From Salinisphaera orenii subsp. orenii MK-B5 (GTDB taxonomy: Bacteria > Pseudomonadota > Gammaproteobacteria > Nevskiales > Salinisphaeraceae), in NCBI RefSeq assembly GCF_003788635.1, contig NZ_AYKH01000017.1, positions 1 through 47,700 on the forward strand: DNA of 47,700 bases, in the 5' to 3' direction. The notes beneath the pieces are model-generated. The model did no database searches and was not told the DNA's origin. It saw only the letters and a list, made by a program, of their open reading frames with translations. Position numbers and translations under genes: made by a program. Positions 1-8,686 of this stretch are shown here, piece after piece. How positions within the stretch are numbered: position 1 is the first letter of the stretch; the number at the start of each line of letters is the position of its first letter.

Positions 1-582
1 GAGCGCGAACTCGCCGGTCTTGCGGCAGAACTTGCGATAGGACCAGCCCGCCTCGGCAGACAGGGCCGGAACGCGGACGCCGACGAGTATCTCGCCGGCC
101 TCGAGCCGGGTCTCGAAGGCCGAGACCATGAATTCGCCGGCGGCGATGCACCGGCTGCCGTTCGGCCCCGTGATGTCCAGGGTCGCACCGAGCGCAGCCA
201 GGGCGGCGATCCAGTCGGCGGCCGGATCGGCGTGGCAGAGGCTGCCGCCGATCGTGCCGCTGTTGCGCACCGCGCGATAGGCGATGCCGCGCGCGACTCG
301 GGCGAGCATGCCCCGGGTCACGTCATCGATAAGCCCGTCCTCGATCGCGGCATGGGTGACCAGTGCACCGATCACCAGGTCGTCGCCCTCGATGCGCGCG
401 CCCTTCAAAGCCTCGATAGACGCGATGTCGACCACGCACTCGGGCTGGGCGAGGCGCAGGTTGAGCATCGGCCCGAGCGACTGCCCGCCGGCGATCGGCT
501 GGGCGAATTCGTTCGCCTGCAGTGCCGCCACGGCGGCGTCGACGCCCGTGGCCGGCTCGATCCGGTAATCAATCGCTTTCAT
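1..582 (-). CDS. FAD-binding subunit of a xanthine dehydrogenase/CO dehydrogenase-family molybdenum hydroxylase (CoxM-like), partial
   Basis: The N-terminal 194 residues or so are visible; the gene runs off the window at base 1. Reading begins MKAIDYRIEPATG. Two FAD-binding signatures of the family are present: AGGQSLGPML near residue 36 and TIGGSLCHADPAAD near residue 108. In this family the medium subunit carries electrons from the molybdenum subunit through 2Fe-2S centres to FAD. Its ATG lies 14 bp inside the end of the upstream large-subunit gene, so the two are very likely translationally coupled. The 2Fe-2S small subunit usually sits beside these two genes and is not in the window, so it is probably just past base 1. 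Family assignment is firm; substrate is unknown. Confidence 0.93.
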   Translation of the reverse strand, partial: MKAIDYRIEPATGVDAAVAALQANEFAQPIAGGQSLGPMLNLRLAQPECVVDIASIEALKGARIEGDDLVIGALVTHAAIEDGLIDDVTRGMLARVARGIAYRAVRNSGTIGGSLCHADPAADWIAALAALGATLDITGPNGSRCIAAGEFMVSAFETRLEAGEILVGVRVPALSAEAGWSYRKFCRKTGEFAL

Positions 583-2929
583 GAGCGGCCTCCCGCAGCG
601 CGGCCATCACCCGTTCGGGACTGATCGGCACGCTGTGAATCTCGGCGCCGAGCGGTGCGAGCGCGTCATTGACGGCGTTGGCGATGGCCGCCGGCGGCGC
701 GATCGCCCCGCCCTCGCCGATGCCCTTCTGGCCGAAACGGCTGAACGGGCTGGGGGTTTCCATATGATCGAGGATCACGGCCGGCATTTCGGCGGCGCCG
801 GGCACGATGTAGTCGGCCAGTGTCGAGGCCAGCGGCTGGGCCTCGCCGTCGAACGGCATTTCCTCGTAAAGGGCGGTGCCGATGCCCTGGGCCAGCCCAC
901 CGAGCAGCTGGCCCTCGACGACCATGGGGTTGAGCAGCACGCCGCCGTCCTCGCAGATGGCGTAATCCAGCAGCTTCACCGCGCCGGTGGCCGTGTCGAC
1001 CTCGGCGACGCAGGCGTGGGTGGCGTAGCTGAAGGTGCCCATGTCGGGCTTCATCTTGTAGCCGGCGACCAGGCCGAGGCCGGCCGGGTCGACGTCGTCC
1101 GGTAGCCGCTGGGGCGCGCGATACCAGGTGTGCGCGATCTCCCTGAGCGTCATCGAGCGGCTGCGATCACCGCTGATCACTTCACCGTTCTCGAAGACCA
1201 GTTCGTCAGCGGCGACATCCAGCAGATGGGCCGCCAGATGGCGCACGCGCCCGGCGAGCTTCTCGCAGGCACTGGCCACCGCGCCGCCGGCCATGACCGC
1301 GCAGCGCGAGCCCCAGGTGCCGGTGGAATACGGCGAGCTCGCCGTGTCGCCGTGCAGGATGCGGACGTTCGCCGGATCGATGCCCAGAACCGTGTTCGCG
1401 ACCTGAGCCATCGTGGTTTCCATGCTCTGGCCGTGCGAGTGCACGCCGATCTGGAGCTCGAGAATGCCGTCGGTCGTCATCCGGGCGTTGCACTGCTCGT
1501 AGCCCGGCACCATCGGAATGCCCCAGCCGTGATAGACCGAGGTGCCGTGGGCGCCCTGCTCGCAGAAGGTCGCCAGCCCCAGACCGATGCGGCGCGCACC
1601 GGTCGTTTCGGCCTGGCGCCTGCGCCAGCCGGGCCAGTCGAGAGCGTCGACCGCGCGGTGCATGCAGGCGATGTAGTCGCCCGAGTCGAACAGTTTGTCG
1701 GTGATGTTCGTGTAGGGCATGTCGTCGGGCCCGACGAGACTCGCCTCGCGCAGCTCGAACGGCTCGATGCCCAGTTCGCGCGCCGCGATATCCAGCATGA
1801 CCTCCAGCGCGAAGCAGACGCCGGTGCGGGCCACGCCGCGATACGGCAGGATCGGCGGCTTGTTGGTGGCCGCCGAGCGCGTATGACAGCTGTAGCTGTC
1901 CATCTTGTACGGTCCCGGCAGGATCGAGCCGACCTGGGCGGCTTCCAGGCAGGCCGAGAACGGATACGACGAATAGGCGCCGGAATCCACGATCGCGTCG
2001 CAGTCGATCCCGGCGAGCCGGCCGCTGCGTTCGACGTGCACGGTGATGTCGTAGGCGTGTTCGCGGCAGTTGGCATTGGCCGACAGATGCTCGCCGCGGT
2101 CCTCGATCCAGCGGATCGGCCGGTCCAGCTGCATCGCCAGCCAGGCGCAGCAGATCTCTTCGGGCAGAAGGATGCCCTTGTAGCCGAAACCGCCGCCGAC
2201 GTCGGGCGAGTCCACGCGCACCCGGCCTTCGTCCAGACCCAGGCATTCCGCCAGCCCGGTCCGATTGATATGCGGCATCTGAGCCGATGTGGTCACCTCC
2301 AGCCGGTCCAGCCGGTGATCCCACCGGCACACGACACCGCGGCCCTCGAGCGGCACCTGGCACTGGCGCGAGGTGGAAAGCTGCCGACGCACGGAGAGCA
2401 CGTCGTCGCCCGGCGAGGTGCCGGCGTCGACCTGGGTTTCGAGAAACACGTTGGAATCCCAGTGCTCGTGCAGCCTGCCCTCGGCGCGACCGTCGGCGGC
2501 GGCGTGCATGTCGGCGACCACGGGCAGATCCTCGTAGTCGACGAACACCTGCTCGGCGAGATCCTCGGCACGCGCCCGGCTCGGCGCGACACACATCGCC
2601 ACCATCTCGCCGACGAAACGGACCTTGTCGCTGGCCAGCGGGTATTGCTCGGACGTCTGGAAGCCCGGCAGCTTAGAGGCCGCCACGATCGGCTTGACGC
2701 CGGCCATGTCCGCCATGGTGTAGACCAGCGACTCCCAGCCCTCGGGCTTGTCGATTCCGGCGATGCGGGCATGCGCGACCGGCGCCCGCACGAACGCGAC
2801 ATCGAGCATGTCGGGCATGCGGATATCCGCGACGTATCGGCCGCGGCCGGCCAGAAAGCGCGCGTCCTCCTTGCGCGCCAGCCGCGCACCGACGCCGCCG
2901 GCCGTGGTGTGTGGGGGCGCGCCGGTCAT
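569..2929 (-). CDS. Molybdopterin-binding large subunit of a xanthine dehydrogenase/aldehyde oxidase-family hydroxylase (CoxL-like)
   Basis: 786 residues from the chosen ATG at 2929. That start gives a 4-bp ATGA overlap with the upstream amidohydrolase stop and begins a normal family N-terminus (VGARLARKEDARFLAGRGRY). The frame is open further upstream but reads as non-family, arginine-rich sequence. Visible hallmarks are the a/b hammerhead domain at the N-terminus, the molybdopterin-contact motif GGGFGYK near residues 243-249, a substrate-pocket segment containing GTWGSR, and the family's catalytic glutamate motif GIGEGGAI near residues 735-742. Enzymes of this fold hydroxylate heterocycles, purines, aldehydes or CO; the CuCoxL-type active-site loop is not evident, so CO oxidation is unlikely. 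Its neighbours (amidohydrolase, amidase, HpxW-like hydrolase) point to a nitrogen heterocycle or cyclic amide. Confidence 0.92.
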   Translation of the reverse strand: MTGAPPHTTAGGVGARLARKEDARFLAGRGRYVADIRMPDMLDVAFVRAPVAHARIAGIDKPEGWESLVYTMADMAGVKPIVAASKLPGFQTSEQYPLASDKVRFVGEMVAMCVAPSRARAEDLAEQVFVDYEDLPVVADMHAAADGRAEGRLHEHWDSNVFLETQVDAGTSPGDDVLSVRRQLSTSRQCQVPLEGRGVVCRWDHRLDRLEVTTSAQMPHINRTGLAECLGLDEGRVRVDSPDVGGGFGYKGILLPEEICCAWLAMQLDRPIRWIEDRGEHLSANANCREHAYDITVHVERSGRLAGIDCDAIVDSGAYSSYPFSACLEAAQVGSILPGPYKMDSYSCHTRSAATNKPPILPYRGVARTGVCFALEVMLDIAARELGIEPFELREASLVGPDDMPYTNITDKLFDSGDYIACMHRAVDALDWPGWRRRQAETTGARRIGLGLATFCEQGAHGTSVYHGWGIPMVPGYEQCNARMTTDGILELQIGVHSHGQSMETTMAQVANTVLGIDPANVRILHGDTASSPYSTGTWGSRCAVMAGGAVASACEKLAGRVRHLAAHLLDVAADELVFENGEVISGDRSRSMTLREIAHTWYRAPQRLPDDVDPAGLGLVAGYKMKPDMGTFSYATHACVAEVDTATGAVKLLDYAICEDGGVLLNPMVVEGQLLGGLAQGIGTALYEEMPFDGEAQPLASTLADYIVPGAAEMPAVILDHMETPSPFSRFGQKGIGEGGAIAPPAAIANAVNDALAPLGAEIHSVPISPERVMAALREAAHESD

Positions 2930-4200
2930 GCCGAAGCGGCCTGCGCCGGCGCGAAGTTCGGCAGCGTGGGCGCATCGGCGTCGAAGCGCTCGCCGCGACG
3001 AAGACAGAAACGCGGCGTGAGCATGCGCTCGGCGGTCACGCGGTGATCTTCGTTGTCGCGCAGCGTCCACTGTCCGCGCTCGTCGTTGAGCACGGAGACA
3101 TCGCCCACCGCACCCGGGCGCAGGTGGCCGATCTCGTCAGCCATGCCGAGCATGCTCGCGGCGTTGGCGGTGACCATTGGCACGACCTGCTCCAGCGTGA
3201 GCCCGAGCGCGAGCATGCTCGTCATCGCCGATGTCAGCGAGAAACGCACGGCGCCGGCGAACATGTGATCGCCCTCCTCGGGGTCGGAGTGGACGTCCGG
3301 CGTGCCCGGCGGTGGCGCCACGCGCGTGTTGTAGCCGTGCATGTCCGCGCCGAGGGTGTTCGGGACGATGCCCGCGTCGAGGACCTTGCGGGCGACGTCG
3401 AAACTGAAGTGCGAGCCGTGGCCGACATCGATCTTCACGCCCTTGTCGATGACGTCGCGGATGAGTTCGTGCACCTGGCCGTGCTTGTCGACGAAGCCGC
3501 CCGGATGACGCGTGAACGGATGCGCCAGCACGTCGCCGGGCTTGACCAGCTCCAGCACGCTCGGAAAGATCGTGTCTGGATCGATGTCCATCGGATCTTC
3601 CGGCGAGGGCCAGAGCTGTCCGAAATGCAGATAGACGGGCATGTTCGACTGGCGTCCGATCTGCGCGGCCAGCTTGATCACGTCCATGCCCCAGCGCTGA
3701 AAGCCGCCCAGTTCGGCATGCGCCTTGATCCCCTTGACCAGATCGGGATTGGCATCGACCGACTTCGCGGTCGCGTCGATGTTCAGACACTCCGGCTGAT
3801 AGAGCTGCGGGTAGTAGTGGCCTTCGAGCCCGCCGACGAGATAGGCGGAGATGAATGCCAGCACGCGGGTCTTGGCCGGCTCGGCGATGAAATGCCGAAA
3901 GCCCGGCAGCGTCATGCAGCTCGGCCCGCCCTGATCGACCAGCGTGGTCACACCCGAACGCACGCCCACCATGTCCGGGTCGAGGCCGAAGCGGCCAGTA
4001 ACATAGCGATAGATATGGGCATGGGTGTCGATCATGCCGGGCAGCACGAGATTGCCCGTGCAGTCGATGACCTCGGCGTCCTCGGCGTAGGGCGCGTTCA
4101 GGCCGGTGACGATACCGTTCTGAATGACCAGGTCGGCCTGCTCATCCGTACCCGTTGCCGGGTCGACCACCCGACCGCCTTTCAACACCGTTGTCGACAT
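2926..4200 (-). CDS. Metal-dependent amidohydrolase (amidohydrolase/deacetylase family, urease superfamily)
   Basis: 424 residues. The beta-sandwich N-terminus (VLKGGRVVDPATG) leads to the first metal motif DTHAH, giving H60 and H62. Other probable metal or catalytic residues are K159 (GIKAH, candidate carboxylated lysine), H192 (YLHFG), H227 (LAHPF) and D286 (LGADMHG). The superfamily hydrolyses cyclic amides, hydantoins and acyl-amino acids at a one- or two-metal centre. An AGGAG ribosome site lies about six bases before the ATG. It is the first gene of a run with the Mo-hydroxylase subunits, overlapping the large subunit by 4 bp, so it may open a ring that the hydroxylase has oxidised. That role is inference; related proteins are often annotated as dihydroorotase or N-acyl-amino-acid deacetylase. 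Confidence 0.85.
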   Translation of the reverse strand: MSTTVLKGGRVVDPATGTDEQADLVIQNGIVTGLNAPYAEDAEVIDCTGNLVLPGMIDTHAHIYRYVTGRFGLDPDMVGVRSGVTTLVDQGGPSCMTLPGFRHFIAEPAKTRVLAFISAYLVGGLEGHYYPQLYQPECLNIDATAKSVDANPDLVKGIKAHAELGGFQRWGMDVIKLAAQIGRQSNMPVYLHFGQLWPSPEDPMDIDPDTIFPSVLELVKPGDVLAHPFTRHPGGFVDKHGQVHELIRDVIDKGVKIDVGHGSHFSFDVARKVLDAGIVPNTLGADMHGYNTRVAPPPGTPDVHSDPEEGDHMFAGAVRFSLTSAMTSMLALGLTLEQVVPMVTANAASMLGMADEIGHLRPGAVGDVSVLNDERGQWTLRDNEDHRVTAERMLTPRFCLRRGERFDADAPTLPNFAPAQAASA

Positions 4201-4328
4201 TCTCGCTCCTGCCTATCCGAATCCTCGATGGGCCGGATAGCGCAAGGGCTGTGCCAGAGCGACTCGCTGCGGTCCTCGCAGACACCACAAGCAACTGATC
4301 AAAAAAGATTAAAATATTTAGAAAATAA

Positions 4329-4346
4329 GTGGTATACCCCGCATTT
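4329..4346 (+). promoter_or_regulatory. Candidate operator, copy 1 (GTGGTATACCCCGCATTT)
   Basis: Matches copy 2 (4423-4440) at 15 of 18 positions; the consensus is GTGGTNNACCCCGNATTT. The core GGTATACC is a perfect 8-bp palindrome, typical of a dimeric regulator site. It lies at the edge of the AT-rich block upstream of the amidohydrolase operon and 207 bp downstream of the MarR-family gene, which is the obvious candidate to bind it. Binding is inference. Confidence 0.5.
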
Positions 4347-4422
4347 GATTGCTAAAGGCCGAGTGAAGGTCAGGTCATACATGCGCCAAAACAACGCCGC
4401 TGCACCAGCATGGGGGAACTAT

Positions 4423-4440
4423 GTGGTGCACCCCGTATTT
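4423..4440 (+). promoter_or_regulatory. Candidate operator, copy 2 (GTGGTGCACCCCGTATTT)
   Basis: Second copy of the 18-bp element, same orientation, 94 bp from copy 1. Its core GGTGCACC is again a perfect 8-bp palindrome although the two central bases differ (GC instead of AT). Keeping dyad symmetry while changing the centre is what selection for protein binding would leave. Confidence 0.5.
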
Positions 4441-4552
4441 CGACAGAGCTTCGATCACGCGGCGGGGAGGTGCTGGTGAAACGATCAGACGATTCGACGC
4501 TCGGCCATCGCCGAAGCCCGCCCAAAGAACGGGCCTGGCCAGAACGGCCGAC

Positions 4553-5053
4553 CTAGCGCAGACGGAAAGGCACTGTACCCAACTCGTTGTTCGCTTCGAC
4601 CAGGCGCGCGAGGTACAGGACGAACAGGTCACGATCGGGGCCGTCGAGCGCTTCGATCGTGCGCTCGTGGGCGCGTGCTACCGCCTCGGTCATCCGGCGC
4701 ACATGATTGCGCCCCTGGCGGGTTGCGCGGGTCAGACGTACGCGCCCGTCTTCGCGGCTTGGGCGGCGTTCGACGAGCTCGCGCTGCTCGAGCCGGCGCA
4801 GCACTTCGCCCACGCTCGTGCGTTCAAGCCCGATCTCGTGGGCCAGCGTCATCTGATCCATCTCGCCATGCTCGGCAAGAGCGGTGAGCACGCTGTATTG
4901 AACCGGGGTGATGTTGAAGCCCTCGGTTTCCTTGGTGAACAACGCGCTGTGAATCTGGTGCAGACGTCGAATGAGAAACCCCGGTCGAACCAACAGCGGC
5001 GAGCGCGCTTCGATATGAGCGAGTTCTTCGGCAACGTCGAAAGGATCGGGCAT
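4553..5053 (-). CDS. MarR-family transcriptional regulator
   Basis: About 166 residues from the ATG at 5053 (MPDPFDVAEEL). A GTG 41 codons upstream (5176) would add an arginine-rich stretch unlike the family and is less likely. A winged helix-turn-helix is visible: ITPVQYSVLTALAEHG, then recognition-helix region GLERTSVGEVLRRLEQRELV, then the wing SREDGRVRLTRATRQG. MarR proteins are usually ligand-responsive repressors of nearby catabolic genes and bind short palindromes as dimers. It sits between the amidase/AtzH-like pair and the amidohydrolase operon, all on one strand. Likely targets are the paired 18-bp elements at 4329 and 4423 and/or the mirror elements at 6895 and 6961. Confidence 0.9.
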   Translation of the reverse strand: MPDPFDVAEELAHIEARSPLLVRPGFLIRRLHQIHSALFTKETEGFNITPVQYSVLTALAEHGEMDQMTLAHEIGLERTSVGEVLRRLEQRELVERRPSREDGRVRLTRATRQGRNHVRRMTEAVARAHERTIEALDGPDRDLFVLYLARLVEANNELGTVPFRLR

Positions 5054-5196
5054 GGCAAGGGAGCACGCGTGGGGCAAAAGGTCGTCGACACCGCGACAGT
5101 CCAAAAGCCCGAACCGGGGCCGGGTGGTCGCGAATGCTCGGATAATCCGTCGGCGCTGCTTCGTCGACGGACTCACCCCGCGTTTTTACACACCCG

Positions 5197-5598
5197 TCAA
5201 TTCTTTGGCAACGCAGACACGTGCGCCGAGACCACCCGCCAGCCGACATCGAAACGTACCCAGCACTGGCTCTGCCGGCCGATCGATACGCCGTTCTCGC
5301 TATCGCGCTCGAATTCGATACTGGCGGTCGCAAAATCCTCGCCGAACGTCGTGATAGCGAGCCGCCGTATCCGGCGATCGAGATTGGCGGGATCACGCGA
5401 CTGGCGAAATGCCCGGATCTCGTCGTGGCCGTAGAGCATCTCGGTCGCCCCGTAGCGCACGGTGTGCTCGCTGGTCCAGAACAGCTCGTCGAGCGTATCG
5501 ACATCGTTGCCGGTGAGCGCGGCTTCGTAGCGCATGAGCGCATCGGTGACTTCGGCAACGACGTCGCGCCGGTTGATCTGATCGGGCGACTGACTCAT
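5197..5598 (-). CDS. AtzH/HpxZ-like NTF2-fold protein (DUF3225 family)
   Basis: 133 residues starting MSQSPDQINRRDVVAEV; the start overlaps the amidase stop by ATGA. The sequence matches the cone-shaped NTF2-like family that includes AtzH of cyanuric acid catabolism and HpxZ of the hpx purine cluster: ELFW, VRYGATEMLYGHDEI and the closing GRQSQCWVRFDVGWRVVSAHVS. In known clusters it travels with an AtzE/HpxY amidase and often with HpxW. AtzH has been described as acting on carboxylated urea derivatives; whether this protein is catalytic or assists the amidase is open. Coupling to the amidase gene is the strongest evidence for a joint role. Confidence 0.85.
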   Translation of the reverse strand: MSQSPDQINRRDVVAEVTDALMRYEAALTGNDVDTLDELFWTSEHTVRYGATEMLYGHDEIRAFRQSRDPANLDRRIRRLAITTFGEDFATASIEFERDSENGVSIGRQSQCWVRFDVGWRVVSAHVSALPKN

Positions 5599-6809
5599 GC
5601 CAGCGCCATCTCGGGCGGCACCGGCACCCGGGGGCATACTCGCCCGGCCAGCTCGATCAGGCGCATGTCGCCGTTGCGACGCGTCATGATCGACAGCCCC
5701 AGTGGCAGACCCTCCTTCATCGCCAGCGGCAGACTCATCTGCGGCAGACCCGCCAGGCCCGCGCTGCACAGCAGCGACATTGCCTGGAACCGATATGTGG
5801 TTTCCAGGGCGGCATCGCCGCCACCGCGCGGCGGGGCCGGACGCGGTGTGGAGGGCAACACCACGACGTCATCTTCTCCGATCAGCGAATCCAGCCGGAC
5901 CGTGATCTCGGCCCGGTGCGCCTGGGCGGCACGCAGCTCGACTTCATCGATGTGGGCTGCCTGTTCGATACGCTCACACACACCGGGGCCGAGTGCGGGC
6001 CGGGTCCGGGTCACCCAATCGCCAAGCGCCGACCACACGTCGGCGGCCTGAATGATGCGAAAGGTCTCGAACCAACGATCCAGCCCGTCTTCGGAAAGGC
6101 GCACTTCGCCTACTTCGCCGACCTCGGCGGCGAGTGTTTCCAGCGCCGGCGCGAAGGCCTCGGCAATCTCGTCGTCCACGGCTTCGAAAGCATCGGTGGC
6201 AATCAACACGCGTTTGAAGGGCCCATGCTCGCGCGCCTCGGGCAACAGCACACGTGCGACCCGTTCAAAGATTTCCGCGTCGCGCGCGAACCAGCCGATG
6301 CAATCGAACGCGTTGGCAAACCGCAGCAAGCCGTCTGTCGGTACGCGCCCGTGGGTGGTGCGCAGACCCAGCAGGCCGCAATAACTCGCCGGCACGCGGA
6401 CCGAGCCGCCACAGTCCGTGCCGAGCGCGAAATCGACGAGCCCCGCGCACGTCGCCGCGGCCGAACCGCTGGACGAGCCGCCGCTCAATCGGTCGAGGCC
6501 CCAACTGTTGACCGGCGCCCCGTAATGGACGTTGTCGCCGGTCAGCGAATAGCACAGCTCGTCGGAGATCGTGCGGCCCACCAGTTCCGCGCCAGCGCCC
6601 AACAGTCTATCGATAGCGTCCGCGTTGGCCCGGGCCGGCGGATGCGATGCCAACCAGTCGGGCTGGCCGAACCCCGTACGTGTGCCCGCGATCTCGAATA
6701 CATCCTTGGCCGCAAAACGCAGCCCGTCCAGCGCGCCGTCGCCGGTGGGCGCCAGTGCCGCCGGATTGTCGCGGCAGAAGGCGTGGACGGTATCTTCGAT
6801 GACTGACAT
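5595..6809 (-). CDS. Amidase-signature family hydrolase (AtzE/HpxY-like)
   Basis: 404 residues from ATG 6809 (MSVIEDTVHAF); the open frame extends upstream but reads as non-family sequence through the promoter region. The Ser-cisSer-Lys triad is intact: K35 in FAAKDVFEI, cis-serine S112 in LSGGSSSGSA, nucleophile S136 in LGTDCGGSVRVPASYCG. At 404 residues it is shorter than AtzE-type enzymes of about 450-470. It overlaps the AtzH/HpxZ-like gene by 4 bp. AtzE needs a small partner (AtzG; HpxX in hpx clusters), and I see no AtzG-like gene next to it. The enzyme should cleave a small amide or ureide; the substrate is not deducible from sequence. Confidence 0.88.
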   Translation of the reverse strand: MSVIEDTVHAFCRDNPAALAPTGDGALDGLRFAAKDVFEIAGTRTGFGQPDWLASHPPARANADAIDRLLGAGAELVGRTISDELCYSLTGDNVHYGAPVNSWGLDRLSGGSSSGSAAATCAGLVDFALGTDCGGSVRVPASYCGLLGLRTTHGRVPTDGLLRFANAFDCIGWFARDAEIFERVARVLLPEAREHGPFKRVLIATDAFEAVDDEIAEAFAPALETLAAEVGEVGEVRLSEDGLDRWFETFRIIQAADVWSALGDWVTRTRPALGPGVCERIEQAAHIDEVELRAAQAHRAEITVRLDSLIGEDDVVVLPSTPRPAPPRGGGDAALETTYRFQAMSLLCSAGLAGLPQMSLPLAMKEGLPLGLSIMTRRNGDMRLIELAGRVCPRVPVPPEMALA

Positions 6810-6894
6810 AGGGCTATCCAATGATTGCGCGCGGTGCACAGCGGGCGAGCAGGCCCGGTAGGCGTTCGATCTGGTCAAGCAAACGCGCCTATCC

Positions 6895-6914
6895 GGCACG
6901 TCTATTGCTAGCAA
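6895..6914 (-). promoter_or_regulatory. Candidate operator facing the amidase operon (TTGCTAGCAATAGACGTGCC on the minus strand)
   Basis: On the minus strand this matches 15 of 20 positions of the plus-strand element at 6961-6980, with GACGTGCC and TTG...GCAA conserved. It starts with the perfect palindrome TTGCTAGCAA (6905-6914). Placed like its mirror partner, TTGCTA could act as a -35 with a 17-bp spacer to TAGGCG, a poor -10, so an activator may be needed or the true promoter may differ. Confidence 0.5.
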
Positions 6915-6960
6915 AGCCCGCGATGCGCCAACGCGCCGCGTGACGTCTCTGCACGCGGCG

Positions 6961-6989
6961 TTGTATGCAACCGACGTGCCAGCTACATT
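6961..6989 (+). promoter_or_regulatory. Candidate promoter and overlapping operator of the HpxW-like gene
   Basis: TTGTAT (6961-6966), a 17-bp spacer and TACATT (6984-6989) fit a sigma70 promoter at moderate strength. The -35 is embedded in TTGTATGCAA, a near-palindrome, followed by CCGACGTGCC; the 20 bp 6961-6980 repeat the inverted element at 6895-6914. A regulator bound here would cover the -35. The leader to the ATG at 7103 would be about 107 nt. Confidence 0.5.
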
Positions 6990-7102
6990 AGCGGCCGGCC
7001 GGAGGCATGTATTCGCGTCCGGCGGCGCGACAACCGTCCGCTCGCCGCTCAATCCGTGGCACGGTCCGTTCGACCGGCCCTGCAAGAATTGAAGGATTTT
7101 CC

Positions 7103-8686
7103 ATGCTGCACAGTGCGAAAGGCCGTTACGGCTGTGTCACCGCTCCCCATCTGTCGGCGGCCCTGGCCGGGCGCGACGTGCTCGCGGCCGGCGGCAGCGC
7201 GATCGAGGCGATGGTCGCAAGCGCGGCCACGATTGCGGTGGTCTACCCGCACATGAACTCGATCGGGGGCGACGGTTTCTGGTTGATCCGCAAGCCCGGC
7301 CAGGCGCCGATCGGCATCTCGGCCTGCGGTCGCGCGGCCGCGCTGGCCACGCCGGACTGGTATGCCGGCCGCGGACACCACGAACAGATCCCGGCCCGCG
7401 GCGCGCAGGCGGCGCTGACCGCACCCGCGACGATCGCCGGCTGGCAAGCGGCACTGAACCAACTCGAACGCGAGCCGATGGCGCTGGACACACTGCTGGC
7501 ACCGGCGATCGCCCATGCCCGCGACGGCTTCGTGACGACCGGCAATCAGGCCGCCTGTACGGCCGCCAAGGCCGACGAACTGCGCGACGTGCCGGGGTTC
7601 GCGGATAGCTTCCTGCCGGGCGGCAACGCCCCGCGCGAAGGCGATATCTTCTATCAGCACGCGCTGGCCGATACGCTCGAAACACTGGCCCGCGAAGGGC
7701 TGGACAGCTATTACACCGGCTCGCTGGCACAAACGCATGCCGCCTATCTGGAGGCGATGGGCTCGCCCCTGCGCGCGGCCGACCTGGCCCAATGCGCGGC
7801 CGACATCGCCGCCCCGCTGTCGACCAAACTCTCGGTGGGCACGATCTACAACATGCCGCCGCCGACCCAGGGCGTGTCGTCGTTGATGATCCTCGCCCTG
7901 TTCGACCGTCTGAAAGTGGCAGAGGCCGAAGGCTTCGATCATCTGCACGGCCTGATCGAGGCGACCAAGCAGGCGTTCATTCTGCGTAACGCCGAACTGG
8001 GCGACCCCGATCATATGAGCCGCCCGGCCGAGTCCTGGCTGGAAGCCGCACATCTCGATGAGTTGCACGCGGCGATCGACCCACGCAAGGCGCTCGACTG
8101 GCCGTACGAAGCCAAACGCGGCGACACCATCTGGATGGGCGCGACCGATCGCGACGGCACCATGGTGAGCTTCATTCAGAGCGTGTTCTGGGAGTTCGGC
8201 TCAGGGCTGGTGTGCCCGGACACCGGCGTGGCCTTTCAAAACCGCGGCGCCGGCTTTTCACTCGCGCCGGGCGCCAACCAGCTCGCGCCCGGCAAGCGCC
8301 CGTTCCATACCCTGAACCCGGCCATGGCCGAACTCGACGACGGCCGCGTGATGGCCTACGGCACCATGGGCGGCGAAGGCCAGCCGCAGACCCAGGCGGC
8401 GGTATTCTCGCGCTATGCGATGTACGGGCAGGGCCTGCAACGCGCGGTGACCGCGCCGCGCTGGCTGCTCGGCAAGACCTGGGGCGATGCCACCACCAGC
8501 CTCAAGCTGGAGAATCGTTTCGATCCGGCGTTGGTGGACGAACTCATCGCGACCGGCCACCAGGTGGAAATGATCGATGCATTCTCCGATCTGGCCGGCC
8601 ACGCCGGCGCGGTCGTGCGTCATCCCAACGGTTACTGCGAAGGCGCCAGCGACCCACGCGCCGACGGTGGGGCCGTCACGCTCTAG
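7103..8686 (+). CDS. HpxW-like Ntn-hydrolase (gamma-glutamyltransferase family; candidate oxamate amidohydrolase)
   Basis: 527 residues from ATG 7103, preceded by GAAGGA seven bases upstream. The N-terminal large-subunit region shows GGSAIEAMVASAATIAVVYPHMNSIGGDGFW, and the autocleavage point is best placed before T342 in RGDTIWMGATDRDG. Classical gamma-glutamyltransferases have a TTH-type motif there; GDTIW instead resembles the HpxW branch, whose characterised Klebsiella member hydrolyses oxamate. No signal peptide is seen, so it should act in the cytoplasm, again unlike periplasmic GGT. It is divergent from an operon encoding HpxZ-like and HpxY-like proteins, which strengthens the HpxW reading. 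Generic GGT-family hydrolase is the fallback call. Confidence 0.82.
   Translation: MLHSAKGRYGCVTAPHLSAALAGRDVLAAGGSAIEAMVASAATIAVVYPHMNSIGGDGFWLIRKPGQAPIGISACGRAAALATPDWYAGRGHHEQIPARGAQAALTAPATIAGWQAALNQLEREPMALDTLLAPAIAHARDGFVTTGNQAACTAAKADELRDVPGFADSFLPGGNAPREGDIFYQHALADTLETLAREGLDSYYTGSLAQTHAAYLEAMGSPLRAADLAQCAADIAAPLSTKLSVGTIYNMPPPTQGVSSLMILALFDRLKVAEAEGFDHLHGLIEATKQAFILRNAELGDPDHMSRPAESWLEAAHLDELHAAIDPRKALDWPYEAKRGDTIWMGATDRDGTMVSFIQSVFWEFGSGLVCPDTGVAFQNRGAGFSLAPGANQLAPGKRPFHTLNPAMAELDDGRVMAYGTMGGEGQPQTQAAVFSRYAMYGQGLQRAVTAPRWLLGKTWGDATTSLKLENRFDPALVDELIATGHQVEMIDAFSDLAGHAGAVVRHPNGYCEGASDPRADGGAVTL

Follow-up and report, generated by a model that had tools for sequence, protein, structure and literature searches.

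In Klebsiella, hpxWXYZ constitutes the oxalurate and oxamate part of purine catabolism. The window, a 47,700-nucleotide stretch of DNA from the salt-loving bacterium Salinisphaera orenii subsp. orenii MK-B5, resembles that system in encoding an HpxW-like protein, an HpxZ-like protein and an amidase-signature enzyme. It differs in that the amidase belongs to PRK08310, no gene the size of HpxX was seen beside the amidase, and the set adjoins genes for a cog3964 amidohydrolase and for a Mo-hydroxylase from a different subfamily, with no purine genes recognised beside it. The cyanuric acid pathway (AtzD, AtzE(G), AtzH and AtzF) is similar in that HpxZ belongs to the AtzH family and an allophanate hydrolase is encoded near the module in the alphaproteobacterium G421; unlike that pathway, the window amidase is not AtzE, and inspection by eye of the sequence flanking the unit in three Salinisphaera genomes showed no recognisable AtzD-type gene. 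The AllG family (PF06545) is shared with AllFGH and AllK of E. coli, whereas the genome of strain MK-B5 lacks AllH and a real carbamate kinase.

The two remaining enzymes also have described counterparts. The Mo-hydroxylase is like those of the quinoline 2-oxidoreductase type in having three subunits, a similar large subunit and a CoxG neighbour, but its large subunit scores below all cut-offs listed, and its usual partner here is the amidohydrolase, a pairing that depends on the search since the loci were found through the amidohydrolase. The cog3964 amidohydrolases 2ogj, 2ics, 8je0 and 8wzy share the fold and the conserved metal-site residues of the window enzyme, although identity in the fold alignments is 22-25% and the genomic partner in most loci examined is a Mo-hydroxylase. 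The cog3964 enzymes assayed so far favour acyl esters over cyclic amides.

Gene content of the locus

The window belongs to contig C17 of a draft genome of 3.67 Mb in 44 contigs and starts at the first base of that contig. The nearest named relative found in the genome scan was Salinisphaera shabanensis, with an amidohydrolase identity of 95%. Genes on the minus strand read in the order amidase (5595..6809), HpxZ/AtzH-like protein (5197..5598), MarR-family regulator (4553..5053), cog3964-type amidohydrolase (2926..4200), molybdopterin-binding large subunit of a Mo-hydroxylase of the xanthine-dehydrogenase family (569..2929) and FAD-binding subunit of the Mo-hydroxylase (1..582). The HpxW-like Ntn hydrolase of the gamma-glutamyltranspeptidase superfamily (7103..8686, plus strand) is divergent from the amidase. 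Overlaps of 4 bp join the amidase to HpxZ and the amidohydrolase to the large subunit, and one of 14 bp joins the large and FAD subunits. Open reading frames and profiles verified the places, common direction, divergent HpxW and overlaps of 4-14 bp given for these genes in the original prediction. The FAD-subunit gene starts with ATG at 582 and encodes the first 194 residues (PF00941, 150.9 bits), the rest being lost at the contig end; for the MarR gene (PF01047, 54.6 bits) a GTG at 5176 is a possible upstream start. The arrangement is more than chance, since it recurs in other lineages.

The best solved match of the HpxW-like protein was 5hft (270 and 256 bits for the two chains), which ranked above other entries of the GGT fold and which we take to be the structure of HpxW, the record itself being labelled gamma-glutamyltranspeptidase. 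The predicted nucleophile, Thr342, aligns with residue 1 of 5hft chain B, the small chain, and the protein scored under the gamma-glutamyltransferase cut-off (304.7 versus 357.85). The HpxZ/AtzH-like protein exceeded the NCBIfam equivalog cut-off for HpxZ (NF033625, 179.7 versus 135 bits) and matched PF11533 with 181.1 bits. The amidase, which pairs with HpxZ, cleared the curated cut-off of PRK08310 (484.9 versus 391 bits), and its motifs with the Lys, cis-Ser and Ser residues are all present. Scores against AtzE-family models were far under the cut-offs (178 versus 461 and 171.8 versus 425.75 bits), and in the tree the amidase fell in a clade distinct from the AtzE and HpxY types with support of 100/99. 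The HpxY label originally attached to the amidase therefore fails. The AtzG protein is about 70 residues long; minus-strand open reading frames confined to the gap preceding the amidase encode at most 38 residues, so no gene of HpxX or AtzG size was found beside it, and HpxZ overlaps the 3' end of the amidase on the side opposite that gap.

The large subunit of the Mo-hydroxylase contains PF20256, PF02738 and PF01315 and a GEGG motif. Among solved structures, quinoline 2-oxidoreductase (1t3q, 496.7 bits) is nearest to it in sequence. The subunit reached no cut-off among the 13 curated models listed and was far under those for xanthine dehydrogenase (358.7 versus 780 and 181.1 versus 849.5 bits). 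The amidohydrolase scored above the cut-off of PRK09237 (403.4 versus 371 bits), the cog3964 family. Its candidate metal ligands are H60, H62, K159, H192, H227/H232 and D286, which are invariant in 11 aligned sequences of identity down to 46%. The predicted structure had a mean pLDDT of 82.7 with 8wzy, 8je0, 2ogj and 2ics as best Foldseek matches.

These fold matches bear on a reading in which the amidohydrolase would work as an esterase or deacetylase, with the Mo enzyme acting on an aldehyde or an aromatic ring and no cyclic-amide step in the route. In assays, 2ogj-type enzymes hydrolyze acyl esters, and the presence of an alpha/beta hydrolase between the two genes, seen in Methylobacterium and in one member of the Geminicoccaceae, would fit such a role. 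The nearest solved Mo enzyme, on the other hand, is an N-heterocycle hydroxylase, and amide nitrogen is suggested by the linkage with genes for HpxZ, amidase, HpxW and AllG-like proteins. An esterase role is judged quite unlikely, and opening of a cyclic amide is the reading followed below.

Probable continuation of the locus and recurrence of its core

The 2Fe-2S subunit and transporter expected before base 1, where the contig ends, were both located on a second contig of this genome, at the end of C42. A domain search of the genome located the 2Fe-2S domain in six places and AllG in one, and one of the 2Fe-2S genes and the AllG-like gene sit together at that contig end. Read inward, C42 encodes a C-terminal part of a FAD subunit, the 2Fe-2S subunit (C42:160826-161344), a CoxG protein, a DUF1116/AllG-like protein, a fused amino-acid-type ABC permease-ATPase (C42:157195-158823), a DUF1989 protein (C42:156491-157114; PF09347, 204.3 bits), a binding protein and an oligopeptide-type ABC transporter. 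The partial FAD subunit that closes C42 is the C-terminal part matching the truncated FAD gene of the window. The same order is uninterrupted in S. shabanensis and in a third Salinisphaera genome (G016), in both of which the permease-ATPase and binding-protein genes lie too close together for a DUF1989 gene to fit between them. Based on gene content and these relatives, we infer that base 1 of C17 and the end of C42 are neighbours, and the operon very probably continues from one onto the other. The block stops at HpxW in all three Salinisphaera genomes, with different outer neighbours in each (glmS, an Asp/Glu-racemase-family murI-like gene, and TRAP-transporter genes). Chances are about even that a single catabolic unit of approximately 20 kb exists here, with the locus as its left half.

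Searches for the amidohydrolase, in which E-value limits differed between samples, detected it in 3 of 17 genomes from the strain's own family, in 2 of 369 genomes sampled across the class (strain MK-B5 included), in 19 of 385 sampled Alphaproteobacteria and in 9 of 268 genomes from the family to which Bordetella genomosp. 4 belongs (counting that genome itself). It was also present in 18 of 72,556 plasmid records, 10 of which were fetched. The genome scan gave 20 amidohydrolase loci, one of which (L023) was dropped as a match of 59 residues only. The final set comprised 58 distinct fetched loci, 53 of them with at least 50% amidohydrolase identity. A core pair, defined as a Mo-hydroxylase large subunit of at least 50% identity within 15 kb of the amidohydrolase, occurred in 42 of these 53 loci and in none of the five below 50%. 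The 11 loci lacking the Mo-hydroxylase were nine from the genome scan (five titled Reyranella; two short or cut), Komagataeibacter and G846; locus L147 carries the amidohydrolase with DUF1116, the Mo-hydroxylase being absent. The loci are non-independent, including three from Salinisphaera, three from Azospirillum and two from Paraburkholderia largidicola.

Within 17 kb of the 42 cores, in fetched DNA that mostly extended about 10 kb per side, genes were found for the FAD subunit (34), 2Fe-2S subunit (33), CoxG (32), MarR (30) and DUF1116 (26). Hpx-type genes within the same distance in the fetched DNA were fewer: HpxZ (7), amidase (7) and HpxW (6). An alpha/beta hydrolase gene lies between the amidohydrolase and Mo genes in Methylobacterium and one Geminicoccaceae bacterium.

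Association with Hpx-type genes and relation to purine catabolism

A joint neighbourhood query recovered the full set in three Azospirillum species and, with the exception of HpxW, in Caballeronia. Plasmids of Azospirillum brasilense Sp7, A. ramasamyi and A. argentinense encode all seven window functions plus DUF1116, together with CoxG-like and 2Fe-2S proteins and a branched-chain-type ABC transporter, and their HpxW relatives are 58-59% identical to the window HpxW. On the plasmid of Caballeronia sp. M1242, a single run with overlaps comprises the amidohydrolase, Mo subunits, CoxG-like protein, DUF1116, hpxZ and amidase; every window function but HpxW is present there. An amidase-HpxZ pair lies approximately 13-14 kb from the amidohydrolase in G421, with a 62%-identical oligopeptide binding protein and the allophanate hydrolase within 10 kb. 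In three possibly closely related genomes, G603, G693 and G771, an HpxW relative lies 20-22 kb from the amidohydrolase. Genes for nicotinate (nic) lie downstream of the unit in A. brasilense and A. argentinense; they were set aside as a pyridine clue to the substrate since A. ramasamyi carries the same unit without them.

HpxZ was present in 19 of 26 core-bearing genomes versus 1 of 15 comparison genomes free of the amidohydrolase (Fisher p = 5e-5), or 1 of 7 comparison genomes when limited to those of at least 3.4 Mb (p = 0.008); the test is rough since the comparison genomes, 15 of 20 listed with no match, were hand-picked and are all Alphaproteobacteria. HpxZ genes directly downstream in Bordetella and G389 were considered and rejected, as they lie on separate contigs (contigs of 84,127 and 39,481).

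These distributions bear on the possibility that two separate units lie side by side, with HpxW, amidase and HpxZ serving ureides and the Mo-hydroxylase and amidohydrolase serving an unrelated substrate. Among the non-Salinisphaera genomes searched, HpxZ was found in 9 of 10 but always on another contig than the amidohydrolase, and 35 of the 42 core clusters have no Hpx group in the DNA examined. Trees united neither the Salinisphaera and Azospirillum copies of HpxW nor those of HpxZ as sisters; shared descent of the recruited copies is therefore unsupported, and recruitment may have been separate. The two groups are nonetheless interleaved with short gaps on the Azospirillum plasmids and joined in an overlapping run in Caballeronia, and the whole block keeps together in three Salinisphaera species despite the three different outer neighbours. 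Independent units are considered unlikely. The one catabolic unit originally proposed gains from this linkage in Azospirillum and Caballeronia and from the 2Fe-2S and transporter genes that follow unbroken in two other Salinisphaera genomes.

The remaining alternative is that the cluster is a urate/allantoin branch, in which the Mo enzyme, or at least HpxW and HpxZ, serve purines. The six 2Fe-2S places of the genome correspond to six Mo-hydroxylases, namely that of the window, two PaoC-like enzymes and three of another build lacking PF01315; the four non-window enzymes scanned with NCBIfam were all below the xanthine dehydrogenase cut-off, the one on C12 having been scanned with Pfam only. The Mo enzyme at approximately 186-189 kb of C23 adjoins genes for 8-oxoguanine deaminase, hydroxyisourate hydrolase and a xanthine permease, with urate oxidase, OHCU decarboxylase, PuuE and ureidoglycolate lyase further on. 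Judged by its gene content, the genome has purine catabolism in this separate cluster with a Mo enzyme of its own. Urate oxidase and allantoinase are both encoded on C23 rather than beside the window unit, and inspection of the adjacent genes by eye revealed no recognisable urate oxidase, allantoinase or cyanurate hydrolase, in keeping with the view that the cluster is not simply one of the known pathways.

The C23 cluster weighs for and against a purine role about equally. Since it has its own Mo enzyme, permease and lyase end, the window unit is not needed for purines, and ending in ureidoglycolate lyase it yields no oxalurate. The window, however, holds the only HpxW and only HpxZ found in the genome, and these may have a role in purine breakdown. 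Relatives of HpxW and HpxZ also occur within purine clusters of G693 and G389, and in the amidase tree the copy nearest that of Salinisphaera is the purine-linked one of G389, the neighbours of which include allantoicase and OHCU decarboxylase. The second HpxW of S. shabanensis is located in a purine cluster, a finding that connects the family with purines but also gives that organism an HpxW separate from the unit. With the window Mo subunit far below the xanthine dehydrogenase cut-offs and the purine genes on another contig, the purine pathway is disfavoured as the whole answer, and a purine role is considered very unlikely.

Proposed route and substrate

The unit is real, recurs and is built from known enzyme families. 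The direction of its chemistry is suggested by G693, in which an HpxW relative of 53% identity lies beside genes for carbamate kinase, FdrA/AllF, AllG and AllH, a context that ties the HpxW group to oxamate; xanthine dehydrogenase, PuuE and guanine deaminase are encoded near the same neighbourhood. For AllFGH of E. coli, PMC11326118 describes the conversion of oxalurate into oxamate plus carbamoyl phosphate, and PMC12625717 names HpxY oxalurate amidohydrolase and HpxW oxamate amidohydrolase. In G754, a D-hydantoinase above its cut-off is encoded approximately 11 kb from the amidohydrolase, and hydantoinase/oxoprolinase-like genes and an NCS1-type permease, all below their cut-offs, are also present, as is an Asp/Glu/hydantoin-racemase-family gene. 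The G693 context, the AllFGH chemistry and the G754 hydantoinase together favour ring opening toward oxalurate or oxamate. A search of the MK-B5 genome for AllH gave no match (0 of 1; the E. coli control was positive), and the best carbamate kinase score was 22.8 bits versus a cut-off of 358.25, whereas S. shabanensis has a carbamate kinase above the cut-off. With neither AllH nor a real carbamate kinase in MK-B5, the reaction of DUF1116 is expected to differ from that in E. coli.

In the route proposed, a small nitrogen heterocycle or a cyclic ureide would enter through the amino-acid-type and oligopeptide-type ABC transporters. The three-subunit Mo-hydroxylase, aided by CoxG, would oxidise a ring carbon next to nitrogen to give a cyclic amide or imide, and the cog3964 amidohydrolase would open the oxidised ring to an N-acyl or N-carbamoyl product of the oxalurate or oxamate type. 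DUF1116, the PRK08310 amidase with HpxZ, and HpxW would then strip the remaining nitrogen, the last by converting oxamate to oxalate and ammonia, with MarR as the likely switch. Gene content, unbroken order in relatives, recurrence, family membership and conserved catalytic residues are the observations on which the route is built; its reactions and their order are deduced from these, and as one explanation running from import to oxalate it is about equally likely to be right or wrong. Our guess for the substrate is a five-membered 1,3-diazole of the hydantoin, imidazolone or creatinine type, degraded via a parabanate-like ring. An oxidative route shared by several bacterial classes, in which the Mo-hydroxylase makes the parabanate-like ring from a five-membered N-heterocycle, the amidohydrolase opens it to oxalurate-type products and the lone DUF1116 protein, independent of AllH and carbamate kinase, is a new enzyme for these products, is a doubtful extension of this scheme.

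A literature search found no description of the cluster or of an assigned substrate, and as far as the searchable literature goes the cluster is undescribed; with most subscription papers out of reach, this argues weakly for novelty. The set is present in Azospirillum brasilense, a plant-root bacterium amenable to genetics, in which the substrate question is directly testable. If the proposed route is true, it would provide a natural substrate class for cog3964 amidohydrolases and for stand-alone DUF1116 proteins, and would represent a nitrogen-scavenging route common to marine, soil and plant-root bacteria.

Arrangements of the amidohydrolase and Mo-hydroxylase genes

In a Geminicoccaceae bacterium and in Methylobacterium radiotolerans (loci L135 and L136), a gene encoding an alpha/beta hydrolase separates the amidohydrolase from the Mo subunit. 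The Mo large subunit is found together with the amidohydrolase in L088 and L090, and no match to an FAD or 2Fe-2S gene was obtained in the DNA fetched for these two loci at the limits used. A nicotinate-type (nic) gene run follows soon after the amidohydrolase in two of three Azospirillum species (L137, L153); the amidohydrolase of A. ramasamyi (L150) has no such run after it.

Amidohydrolases 63-65% identical to that of the window were encoded without a related Mo-hydroxylase in L006-L009, L011, L013, L019, L021 and L022; inspection by eye revealed TauD-like dioxygenase and aldehyde-dehydrogenase-like genes near several of these. Locus L147, also without the Mo-hydroxylase, contains the amidohydrolase (63%) together with the AllG-like DUF1116 protein (38%) and an oligopeptide binding protein (56% identical).

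Transporter genes on contig C42

A single protein of 542 residues (C42:157195-158823, L031) carries both the permease and the ATPase of an amino-acid-type ABC transporter, and a similar fusion, 62% identical, is encoded alongside the module in gammaproteobacterium G278 (L051). Between the permease-ATPase and binding protein genes of the window strain lies a UAAP2-like DUF1989 gene (C42:156491-157114, L031), the product of which scored 234.1 with the UAAP2 model, below the cut-off of 284.7. The matching position in the other two Salinisphaera has no space for this gene. Carboxyguanidine is a substrate of DUF1989 relatives.

Purine-related genes elsewhere in Salinisphaera

A second HpxW relative (47%) is encoded on contig C34 of S. 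shabanensis (L116), where it shares a cluster with OHCU decarboxylase, a member of the HIUase family and a subunit resembling that of xanthine dehydrogenase, which scores 743.6 against a cut-off of 849.5. The purine-catabolism cluster of the window genome is located on contig C23 at about 186-205 kb (L154, L157), with a BhcA-type aminotransferase nearby. The cluster includes a Mo-hydroxylase lacking the PF01315 domain, adjoining 8-oxoguanine deaminase and hydroxyisourate hydrolase; this Mo-hydroxylase is a candidate for an unusual xanthine-oxidising enzyme.
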